Shown here: positions 17,236-58,798 of the stretch, piece after piece
How the letters are laid out: every line of letters starts with the position of its first letter
Numbering within the stretch: position 1 is the stretch's first letter
Assembly: GCA_003165595.1 (NCBI GenBank)
Contig: PLWQ01000020.1
Coordinates: 103,815 to 167,814, forward strand
From: Fibrobacterota bacterium
GTDB lineage: Bacteria > Fibrobacterota > Chitinivibrionia > Chitinivibrionales > FEN-1185
Direction: 5' to 3'
Length of the DNA stretch: 64,000 bases
Made by a program: the position numbers and the translations under genes
The notes under the pieces: model-generated
The model's input: the letters and a program-made list of their open reading frames with translations, nothing else
Database searches by the model: none
Told to the model about the DNA's origin: nothing

Positions 17236-17411
17236 GCCGCGAAGCGGCATACCTTGACGAAGGCGTTGCGGAAACGTGACGAGCGCAATGCGTTAGCGTT
17301 GCGCCTCTCGCACGTTTCCGCTGGAAGGGGTGTGCTCCAAGACCCCGCAGACGCGCCCGGCGCGGCGAGGAGGCTTGGAGCCAGGGGAAACCGCCAGCGG
17401 TTTCCCCACCA
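17236..17411 (+). repeat. Family B four-hairpin structured element (copy 1)
   Basis: Consecutive helices visible 5' to 3': GCCGC-GAA-GCGGC; a long arm closed by GCGGAAACGTG/CACGTTTCCGC with an inner GCGCAATGC-GTTA-GCGTTGCGC; GCTCCAAG/CTTGGAGC enclosing a GC-rich arm; and GGGGAAACCGC-CA-GCGGTTTCCCC. Copy 2 at 58187-58356 (minus strand) keeps every helix, with compensating changes in the third. It sits between trpB and trpA in antisense orientation to them. It could be a structured RNA, a protein-binding DNA hairpin array or a non-autonomous mobile repeat. Confidence 0.75.
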
Positions 17412-58186: not shown

Positions 58187-58356
58187 GGTGGGGACACCGC
58201 TTCGCGGTTTCCCCTGGCCCCCAGCTTCCGGCGCCTTGCACCGGCGATCTGGGGGCACACCCCTTCCAGCGGAAACGTGCGCGTAAGCGCAACGCTTGCG
58301 CATTGCGCGCGTCACGTTTCCGCAACGCCTTCTCTAATGTATGCCGCTTCGCGGCT
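58187..58356 (-). repeat. Family B four-hairpin structured element (copy 2)
   Basis: Minus-strand orientation, in the same direction as purA and ending about 165 bp before its start codon. All helices of copy 1 are kept: GCCGC-GAA-GCGGC, GCGGAAACGTG/CACGTTTCCGC with inner GCGCAATGC-GCAA-GCGTTGCGC, the third helix as GCCCCCAG/CTGGGGGC, and GGGGAAACCGC-GAA-GCGGTGTCCCC with one mismatch. The third helix has changed on both sides relative to copy 1, so pairing is preserved. Confidence 0.75.
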
Positions 58357-58520
58357 GTAAAAGCGCCAGACAGTAACCAACACAGAGTATGATAGCACGC
58401 ATCTTGGGAAATGTGCGCATGCGACCGTGGGAGAACGATCTTGAATCCTGCAAACACGACTTACAACTTGCGAAAGATATTTGCGTCCACAAACGGTCAC
58501 CTACCGTATGACAAAAAGAT

Positions 58521-58671
58521 GTAACGGGGAGTTTCTTGCGCCAGGGGCGACGGAGGGGGTGCCGGAGCACAGTGCCGGCCGACCCGGCCGCCAGGCATAG
58601 GGCGGACCGGCACCGAGGCGAATAGCCGAGCCTGGAGAAGAACCGGTGCCGCAAGGCAGGCGCCCAGATTC
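58521..58671 (+). repeat. Family A structured intergenic element, diverged copy
   Basis: Lacks the GCGTTAGGTGGACC start but keeps GGTGCCGGAGCACAGTGCC, a GACCCGGCCGCCAGGCATAG block, GGCACCGAGGCGAATAGCCG and the terminal GGCGCCCAGATTC. With the family B copy it accounts for most of the 777-bp gap 58022-58798. Confidence 0.6.
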
Positions 58672-58798
58672 AAGGGGGTTACGAGACAGGCTGAACTTCC
58701 CCCACCGGAAGAATTTTACATCATAATACTAGAGAAGAAAATCCCGGCATAGGTTATTTTCCGGAGTCTGTGAAGAATGTGAAGAAAAAGAAAGCCCT

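Follow-up and report, generated by a model that had tools for sequence, protein, structure and literature searches.

The window, a stretch of 64,000 nucleotides of Fibrobacterota DNA, carries two copies of an intergenic sequence with several predicted hairpins, raising the question of whether such a sequence acts as RNA, as cruciform DNA or as a mobile repeat. The original prediction placed the copies at 17236..17411 on the plus strand and 58187..58356 on the minus strand, and both were found there. Copy 1 lies between trpB and trpA, antisense to the trp operon. It begins with an optional palindrome, HP1 (GCCGCGAAGCGGC, 17236..17248, plus strand), followed by a core end module (17263..17411, plus strand) that starts with GCGTTGCGG at 17263 and contains HP2 (about 17268-17321), HP3 (17331-17383, with a bulged T at 17333), HP4 (17384-17407) and the outward terminus CCCCACCA, with ACCA at 17408-17411. 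Copy 2, which again consists of HP1 and the core, forms the right half of a longer composite upstream of purA. As had been predicted, HP3 differs between the copies on both arms, with two of its eight pairs exchanged (T-A to C-G and A-T to C-G), and the accompanying GTTA/GCAA loop difference is also correct and is located in the loop of HP2. The predicted folding energies are -101.9 kcal/mol for copy 1 and -99.4 kcal/mol for copy 2 (z -6.36 and -6.66, respectively), and none of 200 shuffled sequences was equally stable.

Comparison of further copies shows that the core, spanning HP2 to HP4, is about 150 nt long and has a conserved order. Its 5' part comprises a T-rich stretch, a short CC-containing spacer, GCGTTGCG(G), HP2 and GC(T/A)GGAAGGGGTGTG, and its 3' part comprises HP3, which has a conserved bulged T and one of two main types of internal loop, then CCAGGGG, HP4 and CCCCACCA. 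This 3' end points outward, and the structured stretch stops exactly at the element boundary, with unique sequence beyond it. HP1, by contrast, is an add-on of the window's own genus that is missing or replaced in several copies, being absent from L002, L009 and L014 in the window's own genome (G000) and from the distant carriers, G030 among them. The four hairpins that had been taken as the unit are therefore better described as an optional palindrome attached to a core, and this core is the right-hand module of the composite. A number of copies depart from the common form. In the congeneric genome G001, a different dispersed repeat (ATCCCCCTTATCAAGGGGGATACCGCCGAAGGCGGAGGGGGAT) occupies the place of HP1 at L057, L071, L109 and L139, while L010, L025, L031 and L037 of the own genome carry an extra GC-rich insert of about 70-90 bp within HP2 or HP3, a nested repeat. 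At own-genome L016 a GTAG-type palindrome (GTAGGGGCGCATCGCTATGCGCCCCTAC) replaces the HP3 loop and the outer HP3 stem is still paired.

The composite spans 520 bp (58187..58706, minus strand) and runs from an outer end, GGTGGGGG, at 58706 through a family A/A' module, an AT-rich interior, HP1 and the core (family B) to a second outer end, CCCCACC, at 58187. Its family A/A' module (TGGGCGCCTGCC ... CGCCCCTGGCGC; 58538..58666, minus strand) is common to the 5' flanks of other copies: in the own genome 18 of 28 copies have a family A module of 150-240 bp in the 5' flank, in most cases in the same orientation, and no shared sequence was seen in the 3' flanks of these 28 copies. The same asymmetry is found in G030, where the same terminus occurs in inverted orientation within 700 bp on the 5' side of 33 of 65 copies and on the 3' side of 0 of 57. 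No recognised partner accompanies roughly a third to a half of the copies, and copy 1 is among those for which none was seen. The outer termini of the units, of the type TGGTGGGG...CCCCACCA, are similar and both face outward. When the next gene has its stop codon towards the outer terminus, the two are usually 15-60 nt apart, and the inner end stands 200-400 nt away from the gene on its own side; such distances would be expected from the dropping of a two-ended unit into a short gap. Family A (TTGGGCGTTCCCC...CCTCGGTGCCGCC...CCTAACGC; own-genome L246-L265 and 58538-58666 of the window) also often occurs without B. A first look gave 172 candidates in the own genome, of which 40 were scored; the partners seen are B, a related inverted module A', or a third module, C, that ends in GGGGGAAACTTCCCCCACCA. 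Within the window the family A pattern search returned mostly false matches inside genes, and only those near gene ends were used.

We next consider how widely the family is distributed. Searched at E below 1e-6, the own genome (5.39 Mb, 42 contigs) yields about 42 distinct places, a count for which the pieces of one place were merged by hand. A covariance model built from 29 copies was run on 167 Fibrobacterota genomes, and G030 (Fibrobacteres bacterium bog_1184), which belongs to another family, gave 150 scored matches. The copies, whose gathering had been suggested originally, far exceed two. At E up to 0.001, G001, of the same genus, gave 51 matches, of which the weakest are doubtful. Matches were fewer in G006 (nine), G035 (four, in an assembly that is about 82% complete), G015 (Chitinivibrionales bacterium Bin_432; two) and G007 (two). 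Carriers thus amount to seven of the 167 genomes, every one of them in the order of the window (Chitinivibrionales), and the spread within this order is patchy. Matches in other phyla from a pattern scan were not recognised by the covariance model and were attributed to chance, and no match was found in viral contigs, phages or plasmids. In G030 the outer end can carry, outside the terminus, one or two extra 33-nt partial self-repeats in tandem (GGTGGGGGAACCGGGCTTAAATCAAATGTTCTT; L078 at 100-230, L158, L182, L153 and others).

Evidence for movement comes from comparison of occupied and empty sites. Where copy 1 sits in the own genome, the gap between trpB and trpA in G001 is 36 bp and contains no element, and the two genes abut or overlap in four further relatives. 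Loss from G001 is less likely at this site, because the genes are contiguous in those other relatives too. G001 also lacks the 520-bp composite upstream of purA, and its flanks align up to the composite save for a few bases on the left side and about 25 on the right. Four intergenic sites are occupied in both congeners; at two of them (L010/L071 and L030/L145) the element is in opposite orientation, and at the other two (L008/L054 and L017/L147) the subtypes or partners differ. Insertion is thus directly supported at two sites, and the two empty sites, taken together with the inverted occupancy of shared sites, indicate that the element is very probably a mobile repeat. The choice between RNA, cruciform and mobile repeat, which had been thought beyond reach with two copies, accordingly falls on the mobile repeat, while a function as RNA stays a candidate and is weighed below.

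The suggestion that changes between copies preserve pairing was borne out in the larger set. The RNAalifold consensus of 29 copies contains 29 pairs, 19 of which have changed on both sides and yet remain paired. Cells changed on both sides number 150; shuffling gives 43 (sd 6.4), and sliding the structure gives no more than 40. As a partial guard against shared ancestry, each copy was also compared with its nearest neighbour alone, with neighbours judged on unpaired columns. Between such neighbours 70 pairs had changed on both sides and were still paired, against 12.9 expected if the sides were independent, whereas only 37 pairs had changed on one side, against 159 expected. Covariation, assessed here by shuffles and nearest neighbours instead of R-scape, therefore exceeds that due to shared ancestry. 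Such an excess points to selection on pairing or to the copying of one arm onto the other, and arm-to-arm copying could be an alternative source of the upkeep of pairing in old copies.

Taken together, the results demonstrate that the element is dispersed, that it inserted at two sites, that its modules are laid out in pairs and that base pairing is kept up. We consider it somewhat probable that the sequence forms a structured end module of a non-autonomous mobile repeat of the BIME/MITE type, and that the folded strand of this repeat is recognised during movement. At each end of a mobile unit lies a hairpin-rich module that faces outward, and an AT-rich interior of about 100-400 bp separates the two; the end modules of one unit may belong to different families (B with B, A with B, A with A' or C). 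Units insert, in either orientation, into short AT-rich intergenic gaps. An enzyme supplied in trans would recognise the folded single strand. If only copies with intact stems were propagated, subfamilies would come to differ by matched changes. The likeliest mover, proposed tentatively, may be a Y1 (HUH) enzyme of the IS200/IS605-RAYT group. TnpA-REP proteins of this kind act on one folded strand, in some cases needing a bulge (PMC8266576). Y1 transposases are encoded by all seven carriers, yet also by 72 of the 160 non-carriers. No autonomous source or cognate enzyme was found, and there was no recurrent transposase beside the copies in the stretches examined, where the only recurrent protein families were those of ordinary neighbouring genes and those obtained by translating the repeats. 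A bolder proposal, conceivable if doubtful, is that these are a new class of Fibrobacterota element with large, folded, exchangeable ends of several unrelated families; an enzyme, either undescribed or repurposed, would read these ends in the form of structured single strands (RNA or ssDNA), and mobility itself would thereby select the compensatory changes.

Other explanations make different use of the same observations. The modules might be the terminal repeats of an ordinary DDE-type transposon (a MITE), with the hairpins a by-product of arm-to-arm copying (quasi-palindrome correction). The similar outward termini TGGTGGGG and CCCCACCA fit this, and so do the candidate short duplications, such as AAAAGA at L019, that were seen at three sites. 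However, target duplications of at least five shared bases at three of 13 sites are not clearly above the 13% obtained with swapped flanks, ends of unrelated sequence (A and B) pair within one unit, and no source element lies beside the copies examined; we regard this explanation as unlikely. It is slightly less probable that the plus strand is a functional structured RNA, either a gene or a regulatory leader, that was spread by a mobile element and whose stems are kept by selection on the RNA. The covariation is RNA-like, plus-strand folds are more stable than minus-strand folds, and the outer pairs of HP2 favour G.U over A.C (19 against three distinct contexts), although this excess is mainly due to one position in a G030 subfamily. 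Over whole folds, G.U and A.C are balanced (58 to 56 in one count and 48 to 63 in another), as they are in HP3 and HP4, and counts of G.U on the consensus stems are biased because RNAalifold favours G.U. Moreover, the original prediction recognised no known RNA family in the sequence, and no Rfam match was obtained at gathering or relaxed thresholds; no fixed orientation relative to neighbouring genes was found, and in the copies compared the only conserved upstream sequence is the T-rich stretch.

Two further possibilities are both very improbable. HEARO and omega RNAs place a structured stretch at the element boundary and occur as many stand-alone copies. The module resembles them in both respects, ending exactly where unique sequence begins, and could on this basis form the right end of a TnpB- or IscB-type transposon and act as the scaffold of its guide RNA. 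It differs from them in that the Rfam HEARO model gave no match even at a relaxed threshold, TnpB (PF07282) is encoded in none of the seven carriers, and the module is found at both ends, inverted. Spread by reverse transcription, as a relative of a retroelement or group II intron, would account for 5'-incomplete copies and for the tandem 33-nt terminal repeats of G030, but reverse transcriptase (PF00078) is absent from carriers G001, G006 and G035 (the last an incomplete assembly), and this explanation is largely refuted.

A structured end module of a mobile repeat, the reading that we prefer, can be compared with known systems. In IS608, hairpins lie near both ends, a stem contains a bulged base and there is no clear target duplication. 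The units described here share these features with IS200/IS605-derived elements (PMC6006769) and are unlike them in that the ends are inverted and interchangeable, no fixed target tetranucleotide was seen in the flanks and the carriers are without TnpB. With MITEs they have in common that they are short, non-autonomous and intergenic with two inverted ends, the differences being the want of a clear target duplication and the large, covarying structured ends that may be of different families. REP, BIME and REPIN repeats are high-copy, intergenic, palindromic sequences that occur in inverted pairs and are moved in trans by RAYT (TnpA-REP) proteins (PMC3733652, PMC8266576, PMC3116915). The present family matches them in copy number, intergenic location, palindromic character, frequent proximity to stop codons and the occurrence of inverted pairs. 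In contrast to REPs and BIMEs, each module has three or four hairpins over about 150 nt where those repeats have a single 20-50-nt palindrome, end modules can be combined across families, RAYT genes are not flanked by the repeat, and neither GTAG nor CGTC occurs as a tag at a conserved position beside the hairpin; GGTAG is present on the minus strand at the inner end in G030 and not in G000.

The general kind of element, non-autonomous intergenic mobile repeats in inverted pairs, is thus already known, but the long, multi-hairpin, exchangeable end modules set this family apart from REPs and ordinary MITEs. Intergenic repeats moved in trans have been described mainly as single short palindromes, whereas a three-hairpin module is found here, in a largely uncultured order with up to about 150 copies per genome. 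We found no earlier description of the family, or of repeats in this clade, in the open-licence literature. In the strength of their covariation the stems equal those of an RNA gene, though the behaviour is that of mobile DNA, and this is a caution for covariation-based RNA discovery: strong compensatory change alone is no proof of a functional RNA. The many copies also lend themselves, as a natural data set, to the questions of which features of a folded strand a transposase reads and by which enzyme the units are moved. RAYT-like genes are present in G000 (L080) and G030 (L078), neither flanked by the repeat, and the B module nearest to the G030 gene is about 700 bp away. The G030 gene is itself flanked by GTAG palindromes (GTAGGGGTTCAACATGTTGAACCCC), at about 1090 and 1790 of L078, which constitute a conventional REP system.
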